Below are positions 2,961 through 34,205 of a stretch of 64,000 nucleotides of DNA, one piece after another (the first letter of the stretch is position 1; each line of letters starts with the position of its first letter). Both the position numbers and the translations under genes were made by a program. This DNA comes from Laburnicola sp. R22_1. Its lineage: Eukaryota > Ascomycota > Dothideomycetes > Pleosporales > Didymosphaeriaceae. The notes beneath the pieces are model-generated. The model was given only the letters and a program-made list of their open reading frames with translations, ran no database searches and was not told the DNA's origin. Where the stretch lies: NCBI GenBank assembly GCA_014281115.1, contig JACONQ010000006.1:1550001-1614000 (forward strand). The letters run 5' to 3'.

Positions 2961-2962
2961 AG

Positions 2963-3831
2963 AATATTAGCGGTTTAGGTGACCTATAAATCTTACTCTG
3001 TCCCTGCGCCCATAGTCTTTAGAATTACTGTGTTTTACTATATTGATGAGGCCTATAGCTACGCGCTCCTCTAGTCTAATGCTTCTCTATTTCTACATAT
3101 TAATAAGGCACATGGCTACGCGCCCCTTTAGTCTAATATTACCCCTAAGCACTGCTCTATTCTAGCACCCTACTTTCCCTATATTTTATAGTGACAAGAC
3201 CTTACACGTGTTATATTACAGCTCTAGCGAGAAGAATCTTAATATCTAACGCAGAGCACTGTCTATTAAGAAGTTAACAATAGCTAATAACTGTCTACAC
3301 CTAGGTGGATTAGCTACCTATTCTATAGATTAGTTCCCTTAGTACCTACACACCTAAGGCATAAGTCTAGGTATTAGCAAGGAGTTTTGTCTCCTTGTGC
3401 TGGCGCAGCTATATAGAGTAGTTCCGCCTACTTATGCTAGAGTTAATTACACTAGAGTTATTAAGACAGCTTATATTAATAACGAACACGGGCAGACCTT
3501 AGCACTAGACTAGGACCCACCTTTTTTTATTTTAAGACTAGACTCTCCTGTAAGGTACGCCCTTACTTGCTGGCCTAGCTATATAGAATAGTTACGATTG
3601 TTTACGCTAGTACCTGGGCAGACTGCTTTCTTATAGTAATTTTATATTAAAATAGACCTAATCTACTATTATAAGCTATATGCTAAGGACACTTAGACGC
3701 CGACCTATACACAGACGGCTTAGGTGACCTATTAGTCTCACCTCGTCCTAGCGGTTCAGGTGACTAATAAATCTCACCCCGTCCTTGCACTCACAGTCTA
3801 CAAAATTACTATGTTTCACACTATTAATAAG
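2963..3831. repeat. Direct repeats of a retroelement 3' end or LTR
   Basis: A block beginning cggtttaggtgacc at about 2963 recurs as cggttcaggtgact at about 3756, with matching text for about 75 bp until hAT copy 1 starts at 3832. The first copy continues with tagctacgcgctcctcta and catggctacgcgcccctt (about 3058-3130). The continuation of the second copy is found, reverse-complemented, at 28921-28999 on the far side of the window. Two other short similar segments containing agctatatagaatagtt-like text lie near 3405 and 3575. The position just after the degraded pol suggests LTR or 3' UTR sequence. No gene is visible here. Confidence 0.55.
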
Positions 3832-6800
3832 CAGACTTGTTAATAAACAAAACAAACAAAATTTGTGGCTCTGAATTTGTTTGTTTGACGACTTTCTTGG
3901 TGTTGTAGTTTGTTTGTTTGATTTGATGGAGCTATAGAGGCGCTTTTTATTTGATTGTTTGTTTGATTTTGAGTACTTTAAGAGGACTGTGAAAGAGACT
4001 CTGGTGGTGTTATAGGCGGCGGCTCCTCCCACTCATGTATGCTAAACTGTTCGTTGAGCTTATTGTCATCGTACGTTGCCACCACCTTTGCGCTTGGAGG
4101 TTTAAAACCTACTCAAATCTATCGTTGAGTACAAATTAAAGCAGCCAATAGTTGGCTGCCCATTTTGCGTCTCTGTGGCTCAAGTACGTCGCCAGTACCC
4201 AAGAAGACTCGCTCACAGTCAGCGCTGGAGGCAGGGATAGTTAACACGTCCAGCGCCAATCGTAACAAATTGGGATACCTCGGCTTGAGCTGGTACTAGT
4301 ATTGGACAGCTGTACAGCCAGTTTTGTACTGTTCTGATGTCTATGTTAGCTCTCTAAGCCAGCTCTCGTACTCATCCGCCACCCCTATTATCTCGTCGCT
4401 ATTGTCAAGTACCGAATCGATCGCGTCGTCAAAGCTGCTCATCGCGTGTTTAGGCGCAGTTGTTATTGTTGTTGCTGTCGCTAGGGCGGGCTTGTAACGA
4501 GCCCAAAGCTGCTCGAAGCTCGCGTGCGTAGCTTGTAACTGTGCAGGCTTCTCACGCCAGAAGCGTTTAAAGTAGTTCTTGAAGCGTGGGTGGAGTGCTG
4601 TGGCAGTGTAGTAGACGGGGATTTTGAGGAGTTTATTAAGGTACTTGCTCGCCTTCTTGAGCGCAGCACGTACGTTGATAGCGACGTGATCTTCTGGCGC
4701 CTCGTCTGGCAGGTAATTGACGCTTTCAAACAGTCTAAGGCGGGCATCTAGGTTAGCAATAAGAGACTCAAACACAGGGATAACCTCGTATAACGCGCCG
4801 TGAGTGCCAGCTTTGCCGCGACCTTGCAAGCGATTAGTTGCGGACTTTAGCGGCTCAAGCACCTCAATGTACTCGGTAATCACCGCCTAGTCTGTAGTTG
4901 CAAGCCCGCCTAATCGCATCTACTGCGGCACAATAGGCGGCTTAGTGTTGTTGCTTTTGGCAAGCTCGTCAGCGTGCTCAGTCTCTTATATGTGGTAGGA
5001 GGAGTAGCTGTTGATGGCGTGTTGTAGCTCAACACCGCGCTTAAAGCAGTCATGATAGCTGTTCCAACGCGTAACTCCAGGCTTGAAAGGCTCACGGCGT
5101 CTTGCTGTAGCGCCAGCAGGCATCTCAACTGCTTCGCTGTTCTGACAATTCTCAAATATACCCCATTGTTTTGGCGTGTTAATGTAGTTAACAATATCAA
5201 GAAACACGCCAAGCGGACTATCTTTCCGCCATTGCTTCATATAAAACTCCTCTTTGTTGTAGTGTTTAGGCTCGTTATTAAAGGCGTCGGAGTCAGTGCC
5301 AAACATAATAGTTTGCCCAACGAGGTTGAGTATGTGGCAAGCGCAGCGGAGGCGTCGATTGTTGGCGATAAAGCCGTACATTGTGCCGAGTTTATTAACT
5401 GCAGTATCGTTGTTGTAGGCGTTGTCAAGCACGAAATAGCCCAAATTGCTGCTAGAAATCTCAAAGTAGCGTAGGATTCGTACGACAGCTTCCGCGATCG
5501 CTGAGCCTGTGTGCGCACCAACTAGCTGCGGCAAGGCGATGGGAAGGTCAACTATATTGCCTTGAGAGTCAGCGTAGTGCGCACAAATTGCAAAGAAGCC
5601 GCGCTTCCCCCCCTTAGTAGTCCAGCCGTCAAAGCTTATGTGTATTTTGCTAGAGGCCTCAGACAAGGCGCGCTTAACTTGAGGTTGTAGCCAGCTGTAA
5701 AGCCTTATTACGAACCTCGAAACGCTGTTGTGAGACCTCCATAGCGCCGCCTCTGCCTCTGGGTTGGCGAACCTGATTATCGCGCGGAAGGACTCAGTCT
5801 CAAACTCGCGTAATGGCCTGTTGTTGTTGACAAGCTATAACACTGCAGCTTGCCTGAAGCCTTGTACGTCAAAGTTACCCAGCTCCTGCGTTGCATCTTG
5901 GCTTAATGTGACCCCGTTTTCTTCCGCCCATCGCAGCGACTTCTGGCCAGGTTCGAGCGGCCTCTTGTGTACGATAGTGCCTTGTTTGGTGAGCCAATGG
6001 CCGGGAAGGTCTTGCTTTAAATAGTTGTTAGCGGCTGTAGTTGACAGAGTGGTCTGGTGTAGGCCGCCCTTCTTTCTGTTAATGTGACAGTGCTTGCATT
6101 GGAAGTAGATCTTCTCAGGGTTAGTACTAAGCTTTCGAAGGCGATAGTCGTGCCTAAAGACCTAGCTGATGTTGCCTGTAGGTGTGGATAGAGGCACATT
6201 AAAGCCCAGCAGGCGCTTTAAGTCAAGGCCTTTGTAGTTAGTAAAGTCAACACTAGGCGCAGCGTCCTTCTCTACTAAAGCCTCTGTGGCAGCATTACTA
6301 AACGCGCGCGGCGGCTTAGTAGCTATAGGCGGCTTATTAGCCACTAACAGCAACTTCCAAGCTGGCTTATTGGCCTGTAAGGCTTGTAGTATAGGCCGTG
6401 GTGATGGCCTCTAGGCGCGCTCCTCTAGCTCGGTTAGTGGCTCTATTAAGCGCGGCTCTAGAGTACTTTTAAGCACCTTAATAGGCGGCTCCGGCTCATT
6501 AACTACCTCAATAGACAGCTAGGTTAGCGGAGGAGTAAGCGGCCGCTGGCTATCCATAAGGCGCTAGCTGGGTTTCGGCGCACGTTGGGAACGTTTGGGC
6601 ATAGGTTCGGATGCCTTAGCAGGCTCGCGGCTTTGTTTTAGGGGCATAGTAAGCGTGAAGGTAAGCAAAGGCGCGAAAAAGTAAGCTATAGGCGCAGGCA
6701 AGTAAGCCAAAGTATAGTGGGTGTGTAAGCGTTGACGCGCAAGGTACGCGGAAAGTACGCGGTCGGCTAGCCAACATTACCACTTTATGCCAAGGCGTAC

Positions 6801-7504
6801 TACGCGACGCTCTGCAGCCCGCAACAATAGAGATATAGTAAAACAGGCGATAGGAATTAATTTAGCAACATTGATTTAATAGTTTAACTTATAGAAGATA
6901 AGATTTATTGCGTGGTTATAGCAAACGATTTTTTAAGAGTAGTAACTAGGTTTAGAATATATAAACATAACTTAGGCTTCGCTACAATAGCGCAAACTTA
7001 CTTTGCTATAATACCTCAACACTATAATATTAGCTTATTTAGATTATTATATATATATTTATTGTTTTAATAGCTTATTACCTACGTAAAGAAAGAGGAG
7101 GAACAGAGGATAGGAGGTGCTAAAGCCGAATAGCAATTTATGTATATTAGTTGCTGGCGGCCAGTGGAAGCACACATCCGTTATGCGGGCTTTTTTTACG
7201 CAGGTACAATCCACTTAAGAAGCTCTGTTTTTTGCTCTATTTACTATAGGAATACCTATATAATTGCAGCGTTAGGAAAGTTATTATTATATTAACACTA
7301 AGAATATATCACTAACTCTAGGGTACCTTATCATTATAGTATGCTAAGCGATTTAAACAAACTTTAAATTTTTTAACTGCAATTGCCTCTTTTGTTTGTT
7401 TGACCTATTAAAATTGCAGCAGCAGCTTTTTGTTTGGTTGACGTTGTCAATTCAAATAAAATTCAAACAAAATATTGAGGCATGTTTGGTTGTTAACAAC
7501 CCTG
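3832..7504 (-). mobile_element. hAT transposon, copy 1 (recombinant flanks)
   Basis: A 3673-bp element with short terminal inverted repeats, CAGACTTGTTAATAA at one end and CAGGGTTGTTAACAA (read on the minus strand) at the other, and CAAACAAA-rich subterminal sequence. It has the same length and near-identical sequence as the copy at 7656-11328. Its 8-bp flanks differ: ttaataag at 3824-3831 and ggtggaaa at 7505-7512. The reverse complements of both flank hAT copy 3. That makes this a chimera produced by recombination with copy 3 rather than a simple insertion. Confidence 0.93.
3978..6647 (-). pseudogene. hAT transposase, copy 1, inactivated
   Basis: A single-frame transposase of 2670 nt (889 codons) whose start and stop match copies 2 and 3. 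It carries a BED-type zinc finger (CKHC...NNHLK...H), the hAT catalytic core (HISFDGWTTKGGKRGFFAI; NLGYFVLDNAYNN; WRKDSPLGVFLDIV) and the C-terminal dimerisation domain. Several in-frame TAG/TAA codons interrupt it; the longest open stretches cover 4986-5666 and 4341-4883. Most changes are C-to-T or G-to-A, consistent with RIP. It is very unlikely to make protein. Confidence 0.9.
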
Positions 7505-7647
7505 GGTGGAAATAATATTGTAAATCCAGACGGTGACCGGGAACTGTAACTTTGTTAGTACATATACGTAGAGAATCTTACATTGAGGGTATACTTACTA
7601 AACAGACCAGCAAGGTCAAATTTATAACCCGAGACCAAGTGTTATTC

Positions 7648-7655
7648 CCTATGAC
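7648..7655. repeat. 8-bp target site duplication of hAT copy 2 (left)
   Basis: cctatgac immediately precedes CAGACTTG at 7656 and recurs at 11329-11336. Eight base pairs is the length diagnostic for hAT insertion. In the P450 reading it is part of codons 7-9. Confidence 0.95.
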
Positions 7656-10600
7656 CAGACTTGTTAATAAACAAAACAAACAAAATTTGTGGCTCTAAAT
7701 TTGTTTGTTTAACGACTTTCTTAGTGTTGTAGTTTGTTTGTTTGATTTAATGGAGCTATAGAGGCGCTTTTTATTTAATTGTTTGTTTGATTTTAAGTAC
7801 TTTAAGAGGACTGTGAAAGAGACTCTGGTGGTGTTATAGGCGGCGGCTCCTCCCACTCATGTATACTAAACTGTTCGTTGAGCTTATTGTTATCGTACGT
7901 TGCCACCACCTTTGCGCTTGGAGGTTTAAAACCTGCTCAAATCTATTGTTGAGTACAAATTAAAGCAGCCAATAGTTGGCTGCCCATTTTGCGTCTCTGT
8001 GGCTCAAGTACGTCGCCAGTACCCGAGAAGACTCGCTCACAGTTAGCGCTGGAGGCAGGGATAGTTAACACGTCTAGCGCCAATCGTGACAAATTAGGAT
8101 ACCTCAGCTTAAGCTAGTACCAGTATTGGACAGCTATACAGCCAGTTTTGTACTGTTTTAATGTCCATATTGGCTCTCTAAGCCAGCTCTCGTACTCATC
8201 CGCCACCCCTATTATCTCGTCGCTGTTGTTAAGTACTAAATCGATCACGTTGTTAAAGCTGCTTATCGCGTATTTAGGCGCAGTTGTTATTGTTGTTGCT
8301 ATCGCTAGGGCGGGCTTGTAACAAGCCTAAAGCTGCTCGAAGCTCGCGTGCGTAGCTTGTAACTATGCAGGCTTCTTACGCCAGAAGCGTTTAAAGTAGT
8401 TCTTAAAGCGTGGGTGGAGTGCCGTGGCAGTGTAGTAGACAGGGATTTTGAGGAGTTTATTAAGGTACTTGCTCGCCTTCTTGAGCGCAGCACGTACGTT
8501 GATAGCGACGTGATCTTCTGGCGCCTCGTCTGGCAGGTAATTGACGCTTTCAAACAGTCTAAGGCGGGCATCTAGGTCAGCAATAAGAGACTCAAACACA
8601 GGGATAACCTCGTATAACGCGCCATGAGTGCCAGCTTTGCCGCGACCTTGCAAGCGATTAGTTGCGGACTTTAGCGGCTCAAGCACCTTAATGTACTCAG
8701 TAATCACCGCCCAGTCTGCAGCTGCAAGCCCGCCTAATCGCATTCACTGCGGCATAATAGGCGGCTTAGTATTGTTGCTTTTGGCAAGCTCATTAGCGTG
8801 CTTAGTCTCTTATATGTGGTAGGAGGAGTAGCTGTTAATAGCGTGTTATAGCTTAACACCGCGCTTAAAGCAGTCATAATAGCTGTTCCAACGCGTAACT
8901 CTAGGCTTGAAAGGCTCACGGCGTCTTGCTGTAGCGCCAGCAGGCATCTCAACTGCTTCGCTGTTCTGACAATCCTTAAATATACCCTATTGTTTTGGCG
9001 TGTTAATGTAGTTAACAATATCAAGAAACACGCCAAGCGGACTATCTTTCCGCTATTGCTTTATATAAAACTCCTCTTCGTTGTAGTGTTTAGGCTTGTT
9101 ATTAAAGGCGTTGGAGTCAGTGCCAAACATAATAGTTTGCCCAACAAGGTTAAGTATGTGGCAAGCGCAGCGGAGGCGTCGATCGTTGGCGATAAAGCCG
9201 TATATTGTGCCGAGTTTATTAACTGCAGTATTGTTGTTGTAGGCGTTGTCAAGCACGAAATAGCCCAAATTGCTGCTAGAAATCTCAAAGTAGCGTAGGA
9301 TTCGTACGACAGCTTCCGCGATCGCTGAGCCTGTGTGCGCACCAACCAGCTGCGGCAAGGCGATGGGAAGGTCAACTATATTGCCTTGAGAGTCAGCGTA
9401 GTGCGCATAAATTGCAAAGAAGCCGCGCTTCCCCCCCTTAGTAGTCCAGCCGTCAAAGCTTATGTGTATTTTGCTAGAGGCCTCAGACAAGGCGCGCTTG
9501 ACTTGAGGTTGTAGCCAGCTGTAAAGCCTCATCACGAACCTCGAAACGCTGTTGTGAGACCTCCATAGCGCCGCCTCTGCCTCTGGGTTGGCGAACCTGA
9601 TCATCGCGCGGAAGGACTCAGTCTCAAACTCGCGTAATGGCCTGTTGTTGTTGACGAGCCATAACACTGCAGCTTGCCTGAAGCCTTGTACGTCGAAGTT
9701 ACCCAGCTCCTGCGTTGCATCTTGGCTTAATGTGACCCCGTTTTCTTCCGCCCATCGCAGCGACTTCTGGCCAGGTTCGAGCGGCCTCTTGTGTACGATA
9801 GTGCCTTGTTTGGTGAGCCAATGGCCGGGAAGGTCTTGCTTCAAATGGTTGTTGGCGGCTGTAGTTGACAGAGTGGTCTAGTGTAGGCCGCCCTTCTTTC
9901 TGTTAATGTGACAGTGCTTGCATTGGAAGTAGATCTTCTCAGGGTTAGTACCAAGCTTTCGAAGGCGATAGCCGTGCCTAAAGACCCAGCTGATGTTGCC
10001 TGTAGGTGTGGATAGAGGCACATTGAAGCCTAGCAGGCGCTTTAAGTCAAGGCCTTTGTAGTTGGTGAAGTCAACACTAGGCACAGCGTCCTCCTCCACT
10101 AAAGCCTCTGTGGCAGCATTACTAAACGCGCGCGGCGGCTTAGTAGCTATAGGTGGCTTATTAGCCACTAACAGCAACTCCCAAGCTGGCTTATCAGCCT
10201 GTAAGGCTTGTAGTATAGGCCGTGGTGATGGCCTCTAGGCGCGCTCCTCTAGCTTGGTTGGTGGCTCTATTGAGCGCGGCTCTAGAGTACTTTTAAGCAC
10301 CTTAATAGGCGGCTCCGGCTTGTTAACTACCTCAATAGACGGCTGGGTTAGCGGAGGAGTAAGCGGCCGCTGGCTATCCATAAGGCGCTGGCTGGGTTTC
10401 GGCGCACGTTAGGAACGTTTGGGCATAGGTTCGGATGCCTCAGCAGGCTCGCGGCTTCGTTTTGGGGGCATGGTAAGCGTGAAGGTAAGCAAAGGCGCGA
10501 AAAAGTAAGCTGTAGGCGCAGGCAAGTAAGCCAAAGTATAGTGGGTGTGTAAGCGTTAACGCGCAAGGTACGCGGAAAGTACGCGGTCGGCTAGCCAACA

Positions 10601-11328
10601 TTACCACTTCATGCCAAGGCGTACTGCGCGACGCTCTGTAGCCCGCAACAATAGAGATATAGTAAAACAGGCGACAGGAATTAATTTAGCAACATTGATT
10701 TAATAGTTTAACTTATAGAAGACAAGATTTATTGCGTGGTTATAGCAAACGATTTTTTAAGAGTAGTAACTAGGTTCAGAATATATAAACATAACTTAGG
10801 CTTCGCTGCAACAGCGCAAACTCACTTTGCTACAATACCTCAACACTATAATATTAGCTTATTTAGATTATTATATATATATTTATTGTTTTAACAGCTT
10901 ATTACCTACGTAAAGAAAGAGGAGGAACAGAGGATAGGAGGTGCTAAAGCCGAATAGCAATTCATGTATATTAGTTGCTGGCGGCCAGTGGAAGCACACA
11001 TCCGTTATGCGGGCTTTTTTTACGCAGGTACAATCCACTTAAGAAGCTCCGTTTTTTGCTCTGTTTACTATAGGAATACCTATATAATTGCAGCGTTGGG
11101 AAAGTTATTGTTATATTAACACTAAGAATATATCACTAACTCTAGGGTACGTTATCATTACAGTATGCTAAGCGATTCAAACAAACTTCAAATTTTTTGA
11201 CTGCAATTGCCTCTTTTGTTTGTTTGACCTATCAAAATTGCAGCAGCAGCTTTTTGTTTGGTTGACGTTGTCAATTCAAACAAAATTCAAACAAAATATT
11301 GAGGCATGTTTGGTTGTTGACAACCCTG
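7656..11328 (-). mobile_element. hAT transposon, copy 2, with intact target site duplication
   Basis: A 3673-bp element bounded by CAGACTTGTTAATAA on the left and, on the minus strand, CAGGGTTGTTGACAACC on the right. Perfect 8-bp duplications cctatgac at 7648-7655 and 11329-11336 show a clean insertion, here into exon 1 of a P450. It is oriented like copy 1, 151 bp away. Subterminal CAAACAAA motifs are abundant at both ends, as in many hAT elements where transposase binds clustered motifs. Confidence 0.96.
7802..10471 (-). pseudogene. hAT transposase, copy 2, inactivated
   Basis: Same 2670-nt frame as copies 1 and 3. The longest surviving stretch (9844-9053, 263 codons) covers the start of the catalytic core: WLVNNNRPLREFETESF, HISFDGWTTKGGKRGFF, NLGYFVLDNAYNNN. 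The BED finger lies in 10177-9878 (YFQCKHCHINRKKGG). The dimerisation region near 8000-8200 has several TAG/TAA codons. The protein would start MPPKRSRKPAE at 10471. Its hAT assignment rests on domain order plus the 8-bp duplications. Confidence 0.9.
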
Positions 11329-11336
11329 CCTATGAC
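11329..11336. repeat. 8-bp target site duplication of hAT copy 2 (right)
   Basis: cctatgac directly follows the element end and matches 7648-7655 exactly. Confidence 0.95.
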
Positions 11337-11354
11337 AATATCCAGATATGCCAT

Positions 11355-11539
11355 TGTCGCGCTTCGAATCTGGTCGTGTACTAAGTAATTTATTTCGTTG
11401 CCGGTATAGAGAGACAGTCAGTTCAGTGATGGAGAGCAATGTGCGGTGAGGGTGGGTTAATGTAGCATTGTCGTGCCTCGCTGCAGCAGGGCGGTGCAGA
11501 CCACCTGCACTCAAGAGGTAATCCTGCAGGCTGCGCTTA
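11355..11539 (-). promoter_or_regulatory. Former upstream region of the split P450
   Basis: This 185-bp non-repetitive stretch lies between the P450 start codon (minus strand, 11354) and the pogo element at 11540, so by position it holds the old P450 5' UTR and proximal promoter. No TATA box or other specific motif is convincing. With the coding body displaced by inversion it would now drive only the interrupted N-terminal exon. Confidence 0.45.
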
Positions 11540-11587
11540 CTGTGTCCGTGCACTCAACGCCCGGATTCAGTCAACGCCCCGCTGAAC
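11540..11587. repeat. Left terminal inverted repeat of pogo element 1
   Basis: Its reverse complement is 13605-13652. It contains two related copies of a TCAACGCCC-like motif (ctcaacgcccgg and gtcaacgccccg), a possible transposase-binding array. Confidence 0.9.
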
Positions 11588-11628
11588 GCAAACCACCCCA
11601 AATTTCAACACGCCATAACGCCACCAAT

Positions 11629-13500
11629 ATGAGCTCAATTGAGGCTGCAATTAAAGAAATAGAATCGCTAAGGTCAGAAGAATCTTTCTCTTATACTAAG
11701 ATCGCTAGCAAGCATGGCGTTGATCAAAGTACGCTGTCGCGAAGGCACCAAGCGATTCAAACAACGCGTGCAACTGCGGGGTTTAACCGACGGAAACTCA
11801 GTCCCCAACAAGAGCAGGAGCTTGTACAATACATTGAAGGGCTTACAGCGCGTCACTTGCCACCCACAAGAGAGATGATACGAAATTTCGCGTCAACAAT
11901 AGCCAAGGAGCCAGTGAGCGAGAGCTGGGTTACTCGCTTCATTAACCGACACAACATCCATCTAATCTCTTAATGGGCAGCTGGTATGGACAGCAATCGC
12001 CACCAAGCCGACTCAGGGGATAAATACAGCCTGTATTTTGATCTCCTGGGTGCCAAAATTAAGGAATATGACATCGAGCCTCGTCACACGTATAATATGG
12101 ATGAAAAAGGCTTCTTAATTGGTATCACTAGCCGATCAAAACAAGTGTTCAGCAGACGAATGTGGAAGAATAAGGAGGTTATAGCATCTCTCTAAGATGG
12201 CTCTTGTGAATGGATTACCCTCCTAGCGTGTGTTTGCGCTAATGGATTAGCCTTGCCGCCAAGCCTTATCTATTAGGCTACTAACAAGGCTATACAATCA
12301 AGCTAGGTAGAGGATATTAAGGCAGGAGAGCACTTAGTATATATTTCCTCGTCGCCTTTAGGCTGGACAAACAACGATATTGGCCTTGCCTGGCTTAAAC
12401 AGGTGTTTGATCGCTACACTAAGGTAAAAGCTCGACGGTCTTACCAGTTACTCATCCTTGATGGCCATGGATCTCACGTTACTATGGATTTTATCGACTA
12501 TTGCGACCGTAACAGGATACTCCTAGCCATCTTCCCCCCTCATTCAACCCACACACTTCAGCCACTTGATGTGGTTCTATTTAAGCCTCTATCAACTGCG
12601 TACTCAAAGGAGCTATCAGATCACCTCCACCAGAGCCAGGGACTCCTCCCTATTAAGAAAGGGGACTTCTTCCCTCTATTCTGGGAGGCCTGGACAAGCT
12701 CTTTTAAGGAGGAGACGATACTTAAGTCTTTTGAAGCAACAGGCATATCACCATTCAACCTAGAGGTTATACTCAAAAGGTTCACCAACACTACCCTAGA
12801 TGAGCAGGAATCGCGAGAGAGCTCTACGTCAGTACTTAGCGGATCTAACTGGCGTAAACTAGACCGCCTTGTACGATCCGCAGTAGAAGATCAGAGTAGT
12901 AAGGACGCGCAGAAGCTTAGCTGCTCACTCCACCACATCTCAGTTCAAAATGAGTTACTTCACCATGAGATTGCTGGGTTAAGAGAGGCTCTTACTACGA
13001 AAAAGAAGCACAAGAAGAAGGGAAAACCTCTAGACCTGCAACAACGTCAAGAGTACTATGGGGGGGCGGTTTTCTGGTCACCAAGGAAGGTTAGGGAGGC
13101 TCGCGTACGTCAGTCTGTAAAGGAACAAGAGGAGAAGGAGCAGAAGCTTCAAAAAGCTGAGAAGGCTGAGTTGAAGAAGGCAGCTAAGCTATGCAAGGAG
13201 AAAATTGCAGAGGAGAAGCGTGTGGCGAGGGAGGCAGCCAAGGTAGCTAAGGAGAAGGAGAAGGCTGAGAAGGCAGCAGAGCGTGCTCGCCAGAGAGAAG
13301 CTCGCGACGATGCAAAAGCTCTACAATCTACCCAAAAGGGTAAGAGAAAGGCCTCGCAGCCATCTATATAGAGCAACAAGCGTCAGAAACGCGTAGTTAA
13401 TACTATAACTACTCAGGAGGCTTCAGGTGCCGCATCAGCAGCTCCACCCAAGACCACGCGGCATGGCCGCAACGTTAAGCTTCCAAGTAAATATAAGTAG
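11629..13500 (+). pseudogene. pogo/Fot-like DDE transposase, inactivated
   Basis: One frame of 1872 nt (623 codons) starting MSSIEAAIKEIES. It has a psq-type helix-turn-helix (KIASKHGVDQSTLSRRHQ), a CENP-B-type second HTH (LSPQQEQELVQYIE...ESWVTRFINRH) and a DDE core with the three acidic positions visible in YNMDEKGF, LILDGHGSH and LQPLDVVLF. The tail is a Lys/Glu-rich coiled coil. In-frame stops occur at about 11971, 12193, two between 12270 and 12310, and 13369. Most fit C-to-T or G-to-A change. The 322-codon segment 12403-13371 is open but lacks the DNA-binding domain. Confidence 0.9.
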
Positions 13501-13604
13501 CACAGGTGAATCGCAAGCATCAAAATAGTACTCTACTACAAAATCTTGTAATAATAGCGATTTTGTGTGGCTCTGCAGCCTTATTTTAGTTAAGCTGCTA
13601 TGGT

Positions 13605-13652
13605 GTTCAGCGGGGCGTTGACTGAATCCGGGCGTTGAGTGCACGGACACAG
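13605..13652. repeat. Right terminal inverted repeat of pogo element 1
   Basis: Reverse complement of 11540-11587, ending at the TA duplication 13653-13654. Confidence 0.9.
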
Positions 13653-13654
13653 TA

Positions 13655-19572: not shown

Positions 19573-19590
19573 TCTCCTTTAAACAGACAA

Positions 19591-23384: not shown

Positions 23385-23455
23385 TATCTAGCCCGTGTAG
23401 CTGAAATGCGTGAAGAATTTATTCGTGCATGCTCGCGGTCGTGTCCGGTGGACGC

Positions 23456-24967: not shown

Positions 24968-26228
24968 ATGAAATCCTCATCGGGCTCAATATCACCGTCG
25001 GAATGGGAAGAGCTCCAGCGCGACTGCCACCCATTCCCCGCGTACGTCGACTACATCCACGGTCGTCCAACAGAGCATGAGCGCATATACCAGCCGCCTA
25101 TGCCTCTAGGATATCGCGGCGTCAATGCTCATCGGTACGTCAGAACATCTCAATACATGACGGTACCTAACGTTTATTCTCACAGTGCAATGGGCCCGCC
25201 TCCCAACCAGGCTTACCCAGCTGCGGGATTTCTCGCAAGCTCCTCGTGCATGGGACCCCCAGAGCCGCCGTCTGGTCCACCGCCTACTCCTCCAAGCCAG
25301 TTTCGCGGGATGTGGCCCCAAGAGGCCTCGCCTCCTGTACACATACTTCTCCGCGACGACCTGCTGAAGCCGCAGTACGACTGGCTTACGGACAAGGATC
25401 GCGTCAAGTTCAATGCGCGCGTTACCCAACTACGTACGATAGCGGAGAATAAGTACAGCCCCCCAATGCACGGCACGGCAGCGATCAATGAGCTCAAACT
25501 GATCTCAAGCAAAGTGGCGTCATGGGCGCAAGAGAGGTAGGTCATCTTTTCGCTCTCTGCTCATGAGACATCCATTTATTGACCATCTCAGGCAGAATTT
25601 TGATCGCATGATGCACAACGTGATGCCGAAGGTCTACACGGCGTTGCAGGTCAGGCTGCGTATGCCCGACAGTGAAGAAGCCATCGTGGCCAGCCGGTAC
25701 CTGCTGGGGATACAGCAAAAATTTGAGGGGCCGAAGTTTTCGTATATCACGCGTGTCCTGGCGGATATGAACGAGAATCGCCGACAGGGGATTTCGCCAT
25801 ATGAGGCGATTCCGGGGTGGAGCGAGGCTCGGGCGGCGAGTCGCCAGATGATGCCACAGAGAACGGTGGCGCAGGGATTGATGCAAAATGGAACAATGCC
25901 ACACGGAGACATGCCGCAGGGAATGATGCCACACGGAAGGATGATGCCATACGTAGCGACCCAACACGGAATGATGCCACCGGGAACGATGCACCCTAGC
26001 ATGATCCCACAGTTCATGGTGCAGCGGCAGATGATGGCACAAGGAAGGATGACGCCTCAACCACCGGCGCAACAGCACGCGATGCAACAGGGCATGATGC
26101 CATCGGGAACAACGCAACAGCGAATGTTCTACCAAGGAAGGATGATGCCGCAGTGTACGATGCCAGCTGGCGAAGTAGAGCAGTCGAAAGGGGAGACTTC
26201 GCCTTTGCCGGAGTGGAAGAGGTACTGA
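24968..26228 (+). CDS. Hypothetical protein with Met/Pro/Gln-rich C-terminal repeats
   Basis: Predicted as three exons. The intron at 25537-25591 (55 nt) is required to join the two open frames (KVASWAQER to QNFDRMMHN). A second intron at 25135-25185 (51 nt, GTACGT...CTAAC...ACAG) is likely; because 51 is a multiple of three the frame stays open either way. The N-terminal half is Pro-rich (GPPEPPSGPPPTPPSQF) and then helical (LLKPQYDWLTDKDRVKFNARV). From about 25840 it becomes a degenerate repeat around MMPxGxM and MPHG with many Gln, ending PLPEWKRY. I do not recognise a family. The Met/Gln-rich tail looks like low-complexity, disordered sequence. Confidence 0.72.
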
Positions 26229-26976
26229 AGGATGATTGTACATCAGCTTGGTCGGTGAGGGTTTAATGCTTGTATGAGGGTCATGAACTGTGTATGACTC
26301 TTCTCAGTAGCGAGGAATACTGTACAATTGTAAAAGTTCAGTTGATTATAGCCAGATAGGATGAATGAAGGAGGTTGTACGAATAATCAACATTTGAGAC
26401 TCTTTAATTGACATCAGACATCGCACGGAAATGGTATATCTCTGGCTCGTAGGCAATGTGAACTGTTTTATGTGCTGTTCCATTTGAGACGTACTGCCAT
26501 CCAGTTCGCTGATAGTACTAGATGTTGCAGGAGGGCCACTTGACCTTTTCTATACCGATTGCGTATCTAAGTCAGGAGCTTCTACGTAAAACTTCTTTTC
26601 AATGAGTTTTTTAACTTATTGGCTCATGTTGCAAGGCGTAAACTCACACAGTGCGCCCATAACAATTAATTACGCATGTTAGCAAGTAACGTGGTTTTGC
26701 GCACTATACGACTCCCAAGGAAAGAGACACTGTAACAACAATTCGACTCTTGTGACTAATGCCTCTACTAGATCGCTGCTACATTGTTGATTTGAAAATC
26801 AGAAGACATTTTTTTTTTTCGGCGTTACAACAATGCCTTTGTCCCTTATTCCTGCACAATGCCCCCATTTACCTTACTATAGCAATATAAGCTACCAGAC
26901 ACACCCCACCATCCCACCAAACAAAAAACATCAAATCTATAACCAAATATACACCATACCACACACCTTGGCCAAA
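26229..26976. other. Intergenic region
   Basis: A 748-bp region between two plus-strand genes. It becomes AT-richer toward 26800, where a T11 run (tttttttttttc) occurs. No coding or repeat structure recognised. Confidence 0.6.
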
Positions 26977-27726
26977 ATGACAACTCAATCCCTCGCCCCC
27001 AACCCCACCCTCCCCACCCTCACCAACCTCCTTTCCAAACCACACATCCAACACAACACCCCCGAAGCCGGCCGCATCCTCTCCCTCTTCGCCCGCCTCG
27101 CATGTTACGTCGCCCTCGCCTCCTTCTCCACCACCCACGAAGCCGGCTGCGAAGCTCTATCGCACCACTGGCACCACTTAGTCTCGACGACGGATCTCAA
27201 CGACGATAACAGAACGTACATGGCGCGTATCGATGTCCAACAAACAGCGCGCAGCATACACAATATAACGCTTCAACAGCGCAGCGCCGGTCTCGCTGGC
27301 GAGGCCTTATGCGTCCGGACAGCGAGTTTAGTCACCCTCATCGGGCTTGCGGTGCTGGGCGTAACTCGAGGCGATGATCCGCGGATGGAGGGTCTCATCC
27401 TAGGTCCGGAGGAACTACTTCCTGTTGCGGTGCCTCTGTCCTGTGAGCGCGGTGAGGCGGTTCGTATTGCGGATGTTTCTGGGCCGTGTGCGGGGGTGGA
27501 TGCGGAGGGGAATGTTGTTGAATGCGCGATTTGTTTGGGGGGGTTGGCTGGCGGGGTGAGGCTGGGGGTTTGTGGGCATTGTTTCTGTGGGGGGTGTTTG
27601 GGGGAGTGGGTTAATGGGGGGGTGGGGGCGACGGGGTGTTGTCCGGCTTGTAGGGCGAGGCAGGGCTTCCAACGTAGCGTAGTACGGTACGGTGACCCCC
27701 ATCGCTCTACGCTACGGCCCGTATGA
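26977..27726 (+). CDS. RING-finger (C3HC4) protein, C-terminus at repeat boundary
   Basis: A 249-residue frame from ATG 26977 (context CCAAAATGA); an upstream in-frame ATG at 26833 is less likely. The N-terminal half is helical with no known domain. The RING finger sits at the C-terminus: VECAICLGG (Cys 1-2), GVCGHCFCGGC (Cys 3, His 4, Cys 5-6) and CCPACRAR (Cys 7-8), which fits C3HC4. Such proteins are usually E3 ubiquitin ligases. After the RING only about 20 residues remain, and the AT-rich repeat block begins within 50 bp of the stop. The 3' end may therefore have been replaced by repeat sequence, including the inverted pair gtagcgtag/ctacgctac (27675-27712). Confidence 0.75.
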   Translation: MTTQSLAPNPTLPTLTNLLSKPHIQHNTPEAGRILSLFARLACYVALASFSTTHEAGCEALSHHWHHLVSTTDLNDDNRTYMARIDVQQTARSIHNITLQQRSAGLAGEALCVRTASLVTLIGLAVLGVTRGDDPRMEGLILGPEELLPVAVPLSCERGEAVRIADVSGPCAGVDAEGNVVECAICLGGLAGGVRLGVCGHCFCGGCLGEWVNGGVGATGCCPACRARQGFQRSVVRYGDPHRSTLRPV

Positions 27727-28999
27727 GAGCCCAGTACGTACGAGAGCCCCTAGAGATGTTAAAATACAGTCTGTAACTGTAGTGCGCTCTATAAAATCCC
27801 CCTACGCCCTATAGTAGGGTGGGATTTCCTAATTAGGTAATCTGTTGTTATTTTTTAGTATTAAGGTTATTAATAAGGCTTCCCTTTTAGAGATTACCTT
27901 TATAAAGCTTATAAGATTGCTTTTAATAACCTCTCTACCTAGTTAATTCTTCTATAACTATAAGGCCTTAATTATATAGCCTATAAGACTATTACAATTA
28001 TATATAATTATATATTTAGTAGAGCTAAAACACCTTTTATAATTATAGGACGTGCAGGGTATAGAAAGGTAATCTATAGCTATTTTATAAAAAAATTAGG
28101 TAACATTTTTAGCCTACTTTAACCTACTAATAATATAGGTTGTCTATAAGTTATATTAACTTTTAATATTACTACTAAGGTCCCTTTATAAATTATTTAA
28201 GTACTTATTAAGCTATGTTATACGCTTATAATATTTATATAACTTATTACTAGTAAAGAGTATAGAATTTACGCTTATTATTTAAGCCTTTAATATATTG
28301 CCCTTATAAGCCCTAAGTACCTTACGCAATATTAGGGGGGACCTAAATAGCTTAATATTGTCTTTTTTAGCGTTAATATACGCCTTAAATACATAGCGCA
28401 GTAAGTAATTAGCTTTTTAATACTACTTAGGGTGCCTTTTTTAATAGTCCTTAAACTAGGCAATATAGAGCTATAGGTGTAACATAGTAGCTATATAGTA
28501 AAGAAATATGTAAGATAGTGGAGATCACAATAATTCATAGTAATATGGGTTAACTATAAGAAAAGAGGTGTGTCATTACTATAAAGAACCGAGGGCCTAA
28601 AGGTGTATGGGTGAGGCTAGGCATAAGGTTATTCCGGCCGAGGTTATGTGACTAAGGACCGACCATACAGCCATGCGGCAGTCTTACACACCCCCTTCAG
28701 ATTGCCAATAGTGGTAATCTAAGAGATGCTAGGTCCTAAGTTAAAACAGATATGCGTGGCGATAAGAGATAAAGTTAAAATAGCGCAATAGGCAACAAAC
28801 AACTCCCAACCTTAGTAAGGGGAAGAAAAAGGAGCTGTTAGCAGGTTCTTATATAGGCTGCTTGCTATAAAAGTTACCTAAAAACACTATAACAACAGTG
28901 TAAGTAAGCTAAAAGGTGTTAGACTAGAGGGGCGCGTAGCCATGTGCCTTATTAACATGGTGTCGGACTAGAGGGGCGCGTGGCCATATACCTTATTAA
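27727..28999. repeat. AT-rich, RIP-degraded repeat block with LTR-like sequence
   Basis: TA-dinucleotide-rich sequence with no usable frame to about 28560. On the minus strand a purine tract ctgaagggggtg (about 28692) is followed by TGTAAGACTGCCGC, the layout of a polypurine tract and LTR start. From 28921 to 28999 two units of agaggggcgcgt(a/g)gccat match, reverse-complemented, the repeat at 3058-3120. The last eight bases, cttattaa, are half of a recombined hAT target duplication. This block appears to be the former right neighbour of position 3831. Confidence 0.65.
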
Positions 29000-31900
29000 C
29001 AGGGTTGTTAACAACCAAACATGCCTCAATATTTTGTTTGAATTTTGTTTGAATTGACAACGTCAACCAAACAAAAAGCTGCTGCTGCAATTTTAATAGG
29101 TCAAACAAACAAAAGAGGCAATTGCAGTCAAAAAATTTAAAGTTTATTTGAATCGCTTAGCATACTGTAATGATAAGGTACCCTAGAGTTAGTGATATAT
29201 TCTTAGTGTTAATGTAACAATAACTTTCCCAACGCTGCAATTATATAGGTATTCCTATAGTAAACAGAGCAAAAACGGAGCTTCTTAAGTGGATTGTACC
29301 TGCGTAAAAAAGCCCGCATAACGGATGTGTGCTTCCACTGGCCGCCAGCAACTGATATACATGAATTGCTATTCGGCTTTAGCACCTCCTATCCTCTGTT
29401 CCTCCTCTTTCTTTACGTAGGTAATAAGCTGTTAAAACAATAAATATATATATAATAATCTAAATAAGCTAATATTATAGTGTTGAGGTATTGTAGCAAA
29501 GTGAGTTTGCGCTGTTGCAGCGAAGCCTAAGTTATGTTTATATATTCTGAACCTAGTTACTACTCTTAAAAAATCGTTTGCTATAACCACGCAATAAATC
29601 TTGTCTTCTATAAGTTAAACTATTAAATCAATGTTGCTAAATTAATTCCTGTCGCCTGTTTTACTATATCTCTATTGTTGCGGGCTGCAGAGCGTCGCGC
29701 AGTACGCCTTGGCATGAAGTGGTAATGTTGGCTAGCCGACCGCGTACTTTCCGCGTACCTTGCGCGTCAACGCTTACACACCCACTATACTTTGGCTTAC
29801 TTGCCTGCGCCTACAGCTTACTTTTTCGCGCCTTTGCTTACCTTCACGCTTACCATGCCCCCAAAACGAAGCCGCAAGCCTGCTGAGGCATCCGAACCTA
29901 TGCCCAAACGTTCCCAACGTGCGCCGAAACCCAGCCAGCGCCTTATGGATAGCCAGCGGCCGCTTACTCCTCCGCCAACCCAGCTGTCTATTGAGGTAGT
30001 TGACAAGCCGGAGCCGCCTATTGAGGTGCTTAAAAGTACTCTAGAGCCGCGCTTAATAGAGCCACCAACCGAGCTAGAGGAGCGCGCCCAGAGGCCATTA
30101 CCACGGCCTATACTACAAGCCTTACAGGCCGATGAGCCAGCTTGGGAGTTGCTGTTAGTGGCTAATAAGCCGCCTATAGCTACTAAGCCGCCGCGCGCGT
30201 TTAGTAATGCTGCCACAGAGGCTTCAGTGGAGGAGGACGCTGCGCCTAGTGTTGACTTCACTAACTACGAAGGCCTTAACTTGAAGCGCCTGCTAGGCTT
30301 CAATGTGCCTCTATCCACACCCACAGGCAACATCAGCTAGGTCTTTAGGCACGGCTATCGCCTTCGAAAGCTTGGTACTAACCCTAAGAAGATCTACTTC
30401 CAATGCAAGCACTGTCACATCAACAGAAAGAAGGGCGGCCTACACCAGACCACTCTGTTAACTACAGCCGCCAACAACCATTTAAAGCAAGACCTTCCCG
30501 GCCATCGGCTCACCAAACAAGGCACTATCGTACACAAGAGGCCGCTCGAACCTGGCCAGAAGTCGCTGCGATGGGCGGAAGAAAACGGGGTCACATTAAG
30601 CCAAGATGCAACGCAGGAGCTGGGTAACTTCGACGTACAAGGCTTCAGGCAAGCTGCAGTGTTATGGCTCGTCAACAACAACAGGCCATTACGCGAGTTT
30701 GAGACTGAGTCCTTCCGCGCGATGATCAGGTTCGCCAACCCAGAGGCAGAGGCGGCGCTATGGAGGTCTCACAACAGCGTTTCGAGGTTCGTGATGAGGC
30801 TTTACAGCTGGCTACAACCTCAAGTCAAGCGCGCCTTGTCTAAGGCCTCTAGCAAAATACACATAAGCTTTGACGGCTGGACTACTAAGGGGGGGAAGCG
30901 CGGCTTCTTTGCAATTTGTGCGCACTACGCTGACTCTCAAGGCAATATAGTTGACCTTCCCATCGCCTTGCCGCAGCTGGTTGGTGCGCACACAGGCTCA
31001 GCGATCGCGGAAGCTGTCGTACGAATCCTACGCTACTTTAAGATTTCTAGCAGCAATTTGGGCTATTTCGTGCTTGACAACGCCTACAACAACAATACTG
31101 CAGTTAATAAACTCGGCACAATGTACAGCTTTATCGCCAACGATCGACGCCTCCACTGCGCTTGCCACATACTTAACCTCGTTAGGCAAACTATTATGTT
31201 TGGCACTAACTCCGACACCTTTAATAACAAGCCTGAACACTACAACAAAGAGGAGTTTTATATAAAGCAATGGCGGAAAGATGGTCCGCTTGGCGTGTTT
31301 CTTAATATTGTTAACTACATTAACACGCCAAAACAATGGGGTATATTTGAGGATTGTCAGAACAGCGAAGCAGTTAAGATGCCTGCTGGCGCTACAGCAA
31401 GACGCCGTGAGCCTTTCAAGCCTGGAGTTACGCATTAGAACAGCTATTATAACTGCTTTAAGCGCGGTGTTGAGCTACAACACGCTATTAACAGCTACTC
31501 CTCCTACCACATATAAGAGACTAAGCACGCTAACGAGCTTGCCAAAAGCAATAACACTAAGCCGCCTATTGTGCCGTAGTGGATGCGATCAGGCGGGCTT
31601 GCAGCTGCAGACTGGGCGGTGATTACCGAGTACATTGAGGTGCTTGAGCCGCTGAAGTCCGCAACTAATCGCTTGCAAGGTCGCGGCAAAGCTGGCACTC
31701 ACGGCGCGTTATACGAGGTTATCCCTGTGTTTGAGTCTCTTATTGCTGACCTAGATGCCCGCCTTAGACTGTTTGAAAGCGTCAATTACCTGCCAGACGA
31801 GGCGCCAGAAGATCACGTCGCTATCAACGTACGTGCTGCGCTCAAGAAGGCGAGCAAGTACCTTAATAAACTCCTCAAAATCCCCGTCTACTACACTGCC

Positions 31901-32670
31901 ACAGCACTCCACCCACGCTTCAAGAACTACTTTAAACGCTTCTGGCGTGAGAAGCCCGCACAGTTACAAGCTACGCACGCGAGCTTCGAGCAGCTTTGGG
32001 CTCGTTACAAGCCCGCCCTAGCGACAGCAACAACAATAACAACTGCGCCTAAACACGCGATAAGCAGCTTTAACGACGCGATCGATTCGGTACTTAACAA
32101 CAGCGACGAGATAATAGGGGTGGCGGATGAGTACGAGAGCTGGCTTAGAGAGCCAGCATGGACATCAGAACAGTACAAAACTGGCTGTACAGCTGTCCAA
32201 TACTGGTACCAGCTCAAGCCGAGGTATCCCAATTTGTCACGATTGGCGCTGGACGTGTTAACTATCCCTGCCTCCAGCGCTGACTGTGAGCGAGTCTTCT
32301 CGGGTACTGGCGACGTACTTGAGCCACAGAGACGCAAAATGGGCAGCCAACTATTGGCTGCTTTAATTTGTACTCAACGATGGATTCGAGCAGGTTTTAA
32401 ACCTCCAAGCGCAAAGGTGGTGGCAACGTACGATGACAATAAGCTCAACGAACAGTTTAGCATACATGAGTGGGAGGAGCCGCCGCCTATAACACCACCA
32501 GAGTCTCTTTCACAGTCCTCTTAAAGTACTCAAAATCAAACAAACAATCAAATAAAAAGCGCCTCTATAGCTCCATCAAATCAAACAAACAAACTACAAC
32601 ACCAAGAAAGTCGTCAAACAAACAAATTCAGAGCCACAAATTTTGTTTGTTTTGTTTATTGACAAGTCTG
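29000..32670 (+). mobile_element. hAT transposon, copy 3 (recombinant flanks)
   Basis: A 3671-bp element starting CAGGGTTGTTAACAACC and ending ...TTGACAAGTCTG. It is the inverted counterpart of copies 1 and 2. Its flanks are cttattaa (28992-28999) and tttccacc (32671-32678), which do not match each other. They are the reverse complements of the left (3824-3831) and right (7505-7512) flanks of copy 1. The right flank lies inside a P450 coding sequence. Confidence 0.95.
29855..32524 (+). pseudogene. hAT transposase, copy 3, inactivated
   Basis: A 2670-nt frame starting MPPKRSRKPAEASEPMPKR. A Pro-rich N-terminus is followed by a BED-type zinc finger (YFQCKHCHINRKKGG...NNHLKQDLPGH), the hAT core (HISFDGWTTKGGKRGFFAI; NLGYFVLDNAYNNN) and the C-terminal dimerisation domain (YPNLSRLALDVLTIPASSA, DCERVFSGTGDVLEPQRRK). 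Four stops interrupt it: about 30338, 31436, 31514 and 31577, all explained by CAG/CAA to TAG/TAA or TGG to TAG. It has the longest open C-terminal part of the three copies (313 codons, 31583-32524). Confidence 0.92.
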
Positions 32671-34205
32671 TTTCCACCCCCTCGCTAAATTCCCAGGGCC
32701 TCTTCTCTGGCGCGCCTCAAGACTTCCATACATGCGCGCAGTCTAGGGTAGGCATTTCCCCTACGAAATCCAGAAATTGCACGCACGATACGGCGACGTC
32801 GTGAGAGTTGCACCTAATGAGCTCTCTTTTACGAATCCAACCGCTTGGGACGACATCTACACCAATAAAGATGGAGCTAACCCCAAGGCATTTAGAAAGA
32901 GCGAGATCTGGCACGGTAACCCTGAGGGCGGGCCTGCGTCTGTTTTCACGACAATTGATATCAAGGAACATGCGAGAATCAGACGATTCATGGATCCTGC
33001 GTTCAGTGAGAGAGCGATTTTACAGCAAGAGCCTATCCTTCAAGACTACGTTAGTCTTTGCATCAAGAAACTCCGGGAGCAAGCTTCGTCAAGGGTAGCA
33101 CCGCGATCAACATCGTGGACTGGTTCAATTTCACTCTCTTCGATATCATCGGCGATCTTTCCTTCTGGGAGTCATTCGGATGCCTTGAAAAGTGCGAATA
33201 CGAGGGCTGGATGGATCAAATGGTTGCGTCTATCAAACTCCACTAGCTATCCACCAACCTGCGACACTATCCCATCATCAACACGTTGTTGAAACCTCTG
33301 GCCGGATTCCTCATCCCAAAGGAAATCATCAAGCAACACATGGACTACAGCCAAAGCGCCGCGGCAAAACTAAAACGTCGGCTCTCGCCCAGTGCCGATA
33401 TCGATCACCAGACATCGTATCACAGCTATTCCGGAGCGAGGATCGAGGATCGAGGAGAAGGACTGACTCCAGATGAGGTCACGTTAAATGCGATGCTTTT
33501 CATCAACGCCGCAAGCGAAACGACAGCTACAGCACTTACAGGCGTCCGTCAACAACCTCCTGCAGAATCCGGAATCCCTAGCAGCGTTGGAAACAGAGAT
33601 TCGAAAGTTCTCATCGCCATCGGATTTGACGTTGCAGGCGTTGAAGCAGCTGCCATATCTCAATGCGGTTCTCAAAGAGGCGCTGAGAATGTGCAATCCG
33701 AAGTGGGTTGGACATGGTTATTCATTGGAACGTCGTATTGATCTAGGGAGCTAACTAACTCAGTCCTATCGGACACATGCGCACCACGCCTCCAAACGGC
33801 GGCATAGTTGCCCCCCTCATCCACCTTTCCTGAATACCTTCTCACGATCAGCAGACACTAGTAAACATCCAACCACTAGCCCTATCCTACTCACCAAAAT
33901 ACTTCCACGACCCCGAAGCCTGGCGCCCCGAGCGATGGCTCGAGCAAGCCGAAACCGATCCCAAGTCACCGTACTACCATGACAACTGGTAGGGTGTTCG
34001 AGCATTCGTCTGGGGACCTTACAGCTGCGTTGGGGAACCGCTTGGGTGGGCGTGGATGCGCTTGATCGTTGCGAAGATGGTTTGGACGTTTGATCTTAGG
34101 GAGGCTGAGACGTCGAGTTCGAGCAGTGCGTGGGAGGCGCAGGATGTTTTTGGGATTGTGGTTAAGCATCGGTTGGATGTTAGGTTTGTGGAGAGGGGTG
34201 CTTGA
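32671..34205 (+). pseudogene. Cytochrome P450, C-terminal body (truncated by inversion)
   Basis: Begins exactly at the hAT copy 3 end with FHPLAKFPGP, the proline hinge that follows a microsomal P450 anchor, so the anchor and ATG are missing here; they are found at 11354-7505. Later landmarks are the I-helix AASETTAT (about 33510), the K-helix KEALR (about 33676), WRPERW (about 33922) and the heme loop FVWGPYSCVG with its cysteine (about 34008-34037). A TAG at 32744 replaces a likely Trp. Frame changes occur near 33085 and 33540, with further stops near 33244 and 33990. The overall sequence resembles fungal isotrichodermin 15-hydroxylase-like P450s; the substrate cannot be assigned. Confidence 0.9.

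Follow-up and report, generated by a model that had tools for sequence, protein, structure and literature searches.

The question raised by this locus is how two inverted copies of one transposon came to have flanking 8-mers that disagree within each copy and agree across the two. In the window (the whole stretch of DNA analysed, 64,000 nucleotides) we find three copies of a hAT element, with pairwise identities of 96.2-97.0%, which together with their flanks are arranged as follows.

3824..3831, unstranded: TTAATAAG, half of the target duplication at site A
3832..7504, plus strand: hAT copy 1, with two flanks from different insertion sites
7505..7512, unstranded: GGTGGAAA, one half of the site B target duplication (TTTCCACC on the minus strand)
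7656..11328, plus strand: hAT copy 2, a separate insertion in the first exon of a P450 gene, with matching CCTATGAC at 7648-7655 and 11329-11336
28992..28999: CTTATTAA, the other half of the site A target duplication, reverse complement of TTAATAAG
29000..32670, minus strand: hAT copy 3, with a hAT dimerisation domain in the ORF 31583-32524
32671..32678, unstranded: TTTCCACC, the other half of the site B target duplication

Read in the direction of the element, the flanks are TTAATAAG / GGTGGAAA at copy 1 and GGTGGAAA / TTAATAAG at copy 3, and copy 2 has CCTATGAC on each side. The original prediction was that copies 1 and 3, inverted with 21,495 bp between them, had exchanged their target duplications, with copy 2 as a matched example; all four 8-mers are located exactly where it placed them, and the flank comparison confirms the exchange. 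The chance of such a double 8-mer match for one given pair is of the order of 4e-9 by simple arithmetic. An accidental agreement of 8-mers, with copies 1 and 3 having lost their duplications independently, might draw on the abundance of TTAATAAG in the window (20 occurrences on both strands, the flanks at issue included, with 3 for GGTGGAAA) and on the seven of 61 family copies without matching 8-mers, so that other causes of mismatch are possible; but the double exact match stands together with the contiguity of site A and the split P450 gene described below, both independent of the 8-mers, and the chance of this reading is negligible.

Overall, 61 copies of the family are detected in the 63.9-Mb genome of this root-dwelling fungus by end patterns allowing at most three mismatches, a search in which the 61 five-prime and 61 three-prime ends all pair and which more diverged or truncated copies escape. 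Among them, 43 are compared in full (one with a large internal deletion) and 18 by their ends only. Identical 8-mers flank 54 of the 61, which bears out the 8-bp duplication as a trait of the family, and the seven non-identical cases are copies 1 and 3, an inverted pair on contig C6, an inverted pair on C21 and a single copy on C12. When, across all 61 copies, every 5' 8-mer is compared with the 3' 8-mers of the others, seven exact matches appear, five of which fall inside the three inverted pairs (same contig, gap below 22 kb); the other two come from a single pair of matched copies, one on C1 and one on C26, which have CCTACACC in common because they sit at the same position within near-identical flanking sequence. 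The dimerisation domain PF05699 is found in copy 3 (E 2.4e-21) and in one further copy (E 2.9e-21), and short imperfect terminal inverted repeats, CAGACTTGTT and CAGGGTTGTT, lie at the ends of copy 1. With the 8-bp duplication, the domain and these repeats, the family belongs to the hAT superfamily.

Two insertion sites and the segment between them

The sequences around the two sites are the following.

2900..3831, plus strand: left part of a dispersed repeat at site A (the stretch searched)
28505..28999, minus strand: right part of the same repeat, apparently moved off by the inversion
11329..11354, minus strand: likely P450 gene start (MAYLDIVI), too short for significance alone (E 2.5 and 12)
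7505..7655, minus strand: P450 piece that completes the first exon and continues through an intron-like stretch (by eye) into the start of the next exon; homologs P0130, P0131 and P0132; ends at the TTTCCACC junction
32671..34205, plus strand: P450 remainder, a pseudogene with frame breaks and stops

Long matches to the left flank of site A occur in at least 39 further places (40 of 52 candidates scored), and to the right flank in at least 40 (40 of 209 candidates scored). Leaving out the window itself, nine short partial left matches and one short right match, 36 of the left and right matches adjoin on the same strand, and 34 of these overlap by exactly 8 bases, the remaining two having overlaps of -4 and 5 where the alignment stops early; three left and four right places have no partner among the matches listed. 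All five paralogs fetched align ungapped across 120 joined bases (84.2-93.3%) and carry the junction 8-mer in single copy, unchanged in two of them and altered by a single transition in the other three. The paralogs show the flanks of site A as contiguous ancestrally, with one target copy and no loss or gain. A Pfam search with three short ORFs in the AT-rich left flank gives no family; by eye we take these ORFs to resemble a Copia reverse transcriptase.

At site B, the P450 pieces run in order across both sides. P0130 matches 7658-7593 on the minus strand (residues 6-27, E 0.004) and 32672-33094 on the plus strand (residues 55-195, 78%, E 3e-103); P0131 matches 7658-7596 and 7564-7511, both on the minus strand (residues 6-26 and 38-55, E 2e-06), and P0132 matches 7582-7514 on the minus strand (E 0.005). 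A fit of the opening residues of P0130 and P0131 to 11354-11329 (minus strand) is non-significant at the values given above. Elsewhere in the genome, matches to P0130 of at least 80 residues peak at 53% identity, and a search of solved structures with the P450 piece gives no match up to E 0.1. The pieces support a P450 pseudogene split by the inversion, its beginning on the minus strand within 11354-7505 and its rest on the plus strand from 32672, with a one-base frame slip within a few bases of the junction, so that the join may be inexact.

The segment between the two sites contains the following.

7505..28999: inverted segment, 21,495 bp, defined by the exchanged 8-mers, the paralogs with site A empty and the split P450 at site B
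11538..13654, plus strand: pogo-type element with identical 50-bp terminal inverted repeats, TA at each end and a DDE_1 match
14162..19572, plus strand: Copia element with two identical 153-bp LTRs and TCTCC on either side
19818..21545, minus strand: MFS transporter gene
22358..23146, plus strand: TPMT-type methyltransferase ORF
23456..24544, minus strand: OTU-type cysteine protease ORF
26833..27726, plus strand: RING-finger ORF

An inversion from 7505 to 28999, as had been proposed, is backed by the paralogs that join both site A flanks through one 8-mer and by the split P450. Because site A is contiguous in the paralogs and the P450 gene is split at site B, the present order is supported as the derived one. 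Regarding the neighbours, the MFS gene has a locus-tagged match in Kalmusia sp. (N0V90_004423); the small gene to the right of the P450 (34992-35384, minus strand) has nine matches with no Kalmusia named among them, and none of the 13 partial protein matches of the P450 piece has a locus tag, leaving the gene order of relatives unreadable from tags. A tRNA scan gives none.

The same tags and broken neighbours would be produced exactly if the true order were ancestral and the segment had been turned round during assembly, owing to the similar inverted repeats at its two ends. However, the Laburnicola rhizohalophila R22-1 assembly is gap-free and built from 8.27 Gb of Nanopore long reads of a 20-kb library (PMC7936028); contigs C1 (4,903,573) and C25 (3,149,867) agree exactly with its largest scaffold and its N50 (PMC7936028 Table 1). 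Copies of 3.7 kb that differ by 3% should be spanned by such data. The 54 matched copies, many of them nearly identical where compared in full, are also consistently flanked. We regard an assembly flip as unlikely, with a very small chance.

Other rearranged copies of the family

A second fully exchanged inverted pair, with a structure like that of copies 1 and 3, is C6:1377969 (plus strand) and C6:1389055 (minus strand), 7,415 bp apart. One of its ancestral sites is contiguous in every one of the 40 paralogs listed (of 126 candidates, 40 were scored), and for the second the genome matches are its own two flanks only. The C21 pair is half-exchanged: all 40 paralogs listed (of 486 candidates, 40 were scored) have the site of its common 8-mer, ATTAACAC, contiguous, and its flanks CCTCCTCC and CCTGAGGT come from two distinct repeats, as read in two paralogs of each. 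With one new matching 8-mer and two unrelated flanks, this pair appears to fit reversed-ends transposition, for which the progenitor would have had two direct copies and a segment between them that was then lost; a deletion with a later homologous exchange would leave a similar picture. The lone mismatched copy, C12:1809573, has no partner among the 61 copies; the repeat that forms its left flank has another continuation in both paralogs read, no further match to its right flank stands among the 41 listed, and the copy probably marks a deletion scar.

Among inverted clusters with a gap below 25 kb, three of five are rearranged (two fully exchanged, one half); neither of the two wider inverted pairs, with gaps of 55.6 and 77.6 kb, is rearranged, nor is any of the five direct pairs below 100 kb. 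This share of close inverted clusters is the more interesting part of the results. One tentative and rather doubtful idea is that close inverted hAT pairs act as reversible inversion switches, about half of them flipped at any time, with an even number of flips being invisible because matching 8-mers are restored; if so, the segments, including the MFS/methyltransferase block, would differ from isolate to isolate, or even inside a single culture. Chromosome-level assemblies of the species exist for further isolates, five being reported in PMC11245560. The seven unmatched copies among 61 give a first measure of how frequently linked inverted copies recombine in a fungus with RIP-type-mutated repeats, where such mutations are expected to hold exchange down.

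Mechanism of the exchange

The inversion was probably made by homologous exchange between two inverted hAT copies. Two copies of one transposon would have landed some 21.5 kb from each other, facing opposite ways, one in the dispersed AT-rich repeat (site A, TTAATAAG) and the other in the cytochrome P450 gene (site B, TTTCCACC), and a reciprocal exchange between them would then have flipped the intervening DNA, so that each junction copy has one flank per site and the beginning of the P450 gene ends up at the opposite end. Opposite-orientation copies at the two breakpoints, with exchanged target duplications, are found here, as ectopic recombination demands. Reversed-ends transposition, with one new matching 8-mer and otherwise unrelated flanks, was considered for copies 1 and 3 and set aside, both 8-mers matching across the pair. 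We infer both the timing of the exchange and its being homologous recombination rather than aberrant transposition.

The original prediction took homologous recombination as the sole reading; it is still the best explanation, but hybrid-element insertion leaves the same 8-mers, as PMC2775673 describes. In such an insertion the 5' end of one copy and the 3' end of its sister-chromatid copy transpose jointly to a second target elsewhere on that chromosome and turn round the DNA from the old site to the new one; one 8-mer would be the old target and the other the new one. According to that paper the exchanged pattern is the same except that the copies are born identical (PMC2775673). In its favour, the C6 pair is nearly identical (its members depart from the family majority by 5 substitutions and 1 substitution), the members agree in one CC indel state within each of the three pairs, and the half-exchanged state of the C21 pair is a hint of possible aberrant transposition in this family. 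Against it, 116 positions distinguish copy 1 from copy 3, although changes of the RIP type may have arisen afterwards, and no observation favours it over homologous exchange. Two T-run indels also differ within all three exchanged or half-exchanged pairs, but they were not taken to speak against hybrid-element insertion, since the state of a copy tends to follow its strand (the extra T at position 3400 is present in 14 of the 21 copies on the plus strand and in 7 of the 21 on the minus strand), and they may be polishing errors.

A crossover point, expected from the SNPs of the aligned copies, is not located. The 116 mismatches between copies 1 and 3 are almost only C>T / G>A, mostly in CpA context, and the two copies have 16 changes in common, none private and each with at least three carriers. 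We compared copies 1 and 3 with each of the 41 other full-length copies by maximum chi-square (best 8 of 41); the mutation load shifts near element positions 1692-1845, a value reached by none of 500 shuffles. We discount this shift as a crossover, since it measures uneven mutation load and not chimerism, the bystander copy 2 being about as uneven by eye. With copy differences that are almost all C>T / G>A and show no clear crossover, hybrid-element insertion is a less likely alternative to the homologous exchange that we favour.

Comparison with known systems

One assembled genome, without relatives, makes a strong case here, the swapped tags, the empty-site paralogs and the cut gene being in agreement. 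Among the best-ranked matches in the open-access literature searched we found no fungal precedent with exchanged duplications. A related fungal case is MarorhAT-10 of Marasmius oreades, a head-to-tail hAT pair with one copy inverted and the middle sequence lost (PMC9674265); unlike the present case, it is a new variant among protoclones, and the passages considered say nothing of duplications at it (PMC9674265). Published hAT inversions have 8-bp duplications with one matching new duplication at two junctions, to which the C21 pair is alike; copies 1 and 3 differ in having both 8-mers exchanged, which fits recombination by the contrast drawn there. In Drosophila mojavensis, the BuT5 inversion 2s has exchanged duplications at both breakpoints as here, of 9 bp in BuT5, but one of its breakpoints is an excision footprint only (PMC3355041), whereas both copies here are full length. 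A transposon-made inversion is a kind of event already known from Galileo in Drosophila. For the Galileo inversions 2j, 2q7 and 2z3 of Drosophila buzzatii, it is reported that non-inverted chromosomes were sequenced and a crossover mapped to 141 bp (PMC2775673). That account shares with ours an inverted DNA-transposon pair at the breakpoints, exchanged target duplications and single-target ancestral sites (PMC2775673), while the present case differs in being a hAT in a fungus, with its ancestral sites drawn from paralogs and a split gene in one genome and its crossover unmapped.

Exchanged target duplications at inverted hAT copies

The window carries three copies of one hAT family:

3832-7504, plus strand, hAT copy 1, a 3.67-kb transposon
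7656-11328, plus strand, hAT copy 2, a 3.67-kb transposon
29000-32670, minus strand, hAT copy 3, a 3.67-kb transposon

Their pairwise identities are 96.2-97.0%, and nearly all differences are C>T and G>A changes, mostly in CpA context (75 of the 97 changes of copy 1 against the family majority), a pattern that we take as the signature of repeat-induced point mutation. Both flanks of copy 2 are CCTATGAC. Read in the element direction, copy 1 is flanked by TTAATAAG and GGTGGAAA, and copy 3 by GGTGGAAA and TTAATAAG, that is, exchanged relative to copy 1. Both the matching 8-bp flanks of copy 2 and the swapped flanks of copies 1 and 3, as claimed in the original prediction, are confirmed. Reversed-ends transposition does not suit copies 1 and 3, as both 8-mers match across the pair.

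Homologous exchange between the inverted copies 1 and 3 would swap these tags and invert the DNA between them (7505-28999). Hybrid-element insertion is described as giving the same exchanged tags, but with identical copies (PMC2775673); copies 1 and 3 differ, though their changes can postdate the event. Since the differences are possibly later and the crossover test is uninformative, we hold homologous exchange to be the quite likely origin of the inversion and hybrid-element insertion an improbable one. The reasoning for homologous recombination in the original prediction stands; lesser possibilities beside it are hybrid-element insertion and an assembly flip of the segment. The Laburnicola rhizohalophila R22-1 assembly is described as gap-free, with 26 scaffolds (largest 4,903,573, N50 3,149,867), a 20-kb Nanopore library and 8.27 Gb of long reads (PMC7936028).

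The two ancestral insertion sites

On the whole, we regard the inversion as real, and two lines of evidence separate from the tags agree with it. The first concerns site A, the ancestral insertion point in a dispersed repeat, which contains both 2900-3831 (left of copy 1) and the reverse complement from 28999 downwards (left of copy 3). Long matches elsewhere lie in at least 39 places for the left flank, where 40 of 52 candidates were scored, and in at least 40 for the right, where 40 of 209 were, so both counts are lower bounds. As same-strand neighbours, 36 left and right matches pair up, overlapping by exactly 8 bases in 34 pairs and by -4 and 5 in two where the alignment stops early; among the matches listed, 3 of the left flank and 4 of the right lack a partner. 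All five paralogs fetched align gap-free over 120 joined bases (84.2-93.3%), and the junction holds a single 8-mer copy, which is exact in two paralogs and differs by one transition in the other three. Therefore the flanks of site A were a single sequence before the hAT element landed.

A word resembling the 8-mer of site A recurs 44 bases on, within a tandem unit. The 44-base unit with TTAATAAG is repeated at 3096-3136 and 28915-29005, with equal direction after the inversion is undone, and TTAATAAG is a common word here partly because of this unit.

The second line is site B, the ancestral insertion point in a cytochrome P450 gene. Starting at 32671, the plus strand gives FHPLAKFPGPLLWRASRLPYMRAV, followed by P450 sequence to about 34205 that is interrupted by stops and frame breaks. 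PF00067 matches with E no higher than 0.1 come from five pieces, one of them above the curated cut-off, and the homologs are the stronger evidence for the identity. This stretch is without the beginning of the protein, which the partial homologs P0130, P0131 and P0132 include. Residues 55-195 of P0130 match 32672-33094 on the plus strand (78%, E 3e-103), and residues 6-27 match 7658-7593 on the minus strand (54.5%, E 0.004). Residues 6-26 and 38-55 of P0131 match 7658-7596 and 7564-7511 on the minus strand (52 and 56%, E 2e-06), the latter running up to the junction as YVLTKLQFPVTVWIYNII; P0132 gives a consistent match (7582-7514, minus strand, E 0.005). MAYLDIVI at 11354-11329 (minus strand) fits the first residues, too few for significance (E 2.5 and 12). 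Copy 2 sits between 11328 and 7656, and its 8-mer falls in the first exon. Judged from these matches, the gene (7505-11354 and 32671-34205) appears to have been hit separately by two hAT elements, at points 151 bp from each other, and to have been split later by the inversion, its beginning and remainder now lying on opposite strands at the two breakpoints. A mix-up with another P450 copy is unlikely, because no other genomic row of at least 80 residues exceeds 53% identity to P0130; short rows, 27 and 28 residues long, have 63 and 54%. There is a one-base frame slip near the junction, with further breaks elsewhere in the gene.

Inside the segment, an MFS gene shares 81% identity with proteins of Kalmusia and Bimuria. 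Between it and the P450 start lies a Copia element (14162-19572), probably a recent insertion, whose 153-bp LTRs are identical and which is flanked by duplications of TCTCC.

The hAT family across the genome

Searching the genome with patterns for both ends (at most 3 mismatches) gives 61 five-prime and 61 three-prime ends, pairing into 61 copies. The flanking 8-mers are identical in 54 copies and different in seven, namely copies 1 and 3 and the following elsewhere in the assembly:

G000:C6:1377969-1392723, C6:1377969 (plus) with C6:1389055 (minus), inverted, 7,415 bp apart, fully exchanged CCGCCCAC / CACCTTAG
G000:C21:3961510-3972512, C21:3961510 (minus) with C21:3968840 (plus), inverted, 3,659 bp apart, half exchanged
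G000:C12:1809573-1813241, C12:1809573, lone copy, differing flanks TTCTAGAG / GGAACAAT

An all-against-all comparison of the 61 copies gives seven exact matches between the 5' 8-mer of one copy and the 3' 8-mer of a different copy. Of these matches, five are inside the three inverted pairs, and the other two come from one pair of matched copies at the same place in near-identical flanks. These two (G000:C1:118481-122151 and G000:C26:755362-759031) have the common target CCTACACC, and their 60-base flanks are near-identical on either side; either the same spot of one repeat was targeted, or the copies were copied together with that stretch. Among full-length elements, the lengths of two T-runs (alignment positions 3363 and 3400) tend to follow the strand on which the copy is assembled (at 3400, 14 of 21 plus copies and 7 of 21 minus copies carry an additional T), which may reflect polishing errors in repeats.

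The C6 inversion looks young, because its copies differ from the family majority by just 5 and 1 substitutions. In the C21 pair, ATTAACAC is common to both copies while CCTCCTCC and CCTGAGGT are unmatched; the matching site is uninterrupted in all 40 paralogs among the matches listed, and the remaining two flanks belong to two different repeats. Reversed-ends transposition fits this pattern and is possible, and a deletion followed by homologous exchange would fit as well. The C12 copy has no partner among the 61, and is probably a deletion scar left by two direct copies; deletions of this kind would remove one copy and so leave such loners.

Copies on the same contig and less than 100 kb apart were counted as linked. 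Inverted clusters with gaps below 25 kb number five (C3, C6, C21, C23 and C24, with two such pairs in C23); the numbers are small, with three of these five rearranged and neither of the two inverted pairs that are 55.6 and 77.6 kb apart. None of the five direct pairs is mismatched except for copy 1, which partners copy 3. As a second flip brings back matching tags, a count of three in five agrees with back-and-forth flipping of close inverted pairs, which we nevertheless think doubtful.

Relation to known inversions

Laburnicola rhizohalophila is reported to be homothallic, one of its groups showing higher recombination (PMC8629976), and segmental inversions are reported between its genomes (PMC11245560). 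A transposon-made inversion of this type is an already known kind of event; what this adds is a single genome in which three lines of evidence agree, a family census with a second clean exchanged case (C6), and a possible reversed-ends case (C21) in a fungal hAT. Copies 1 and 3 resemble Galileo of Drosophila, for which exchanged duplications at inverted copies are likewise argued to be the outcome of homologous exchange (PMC2775673).
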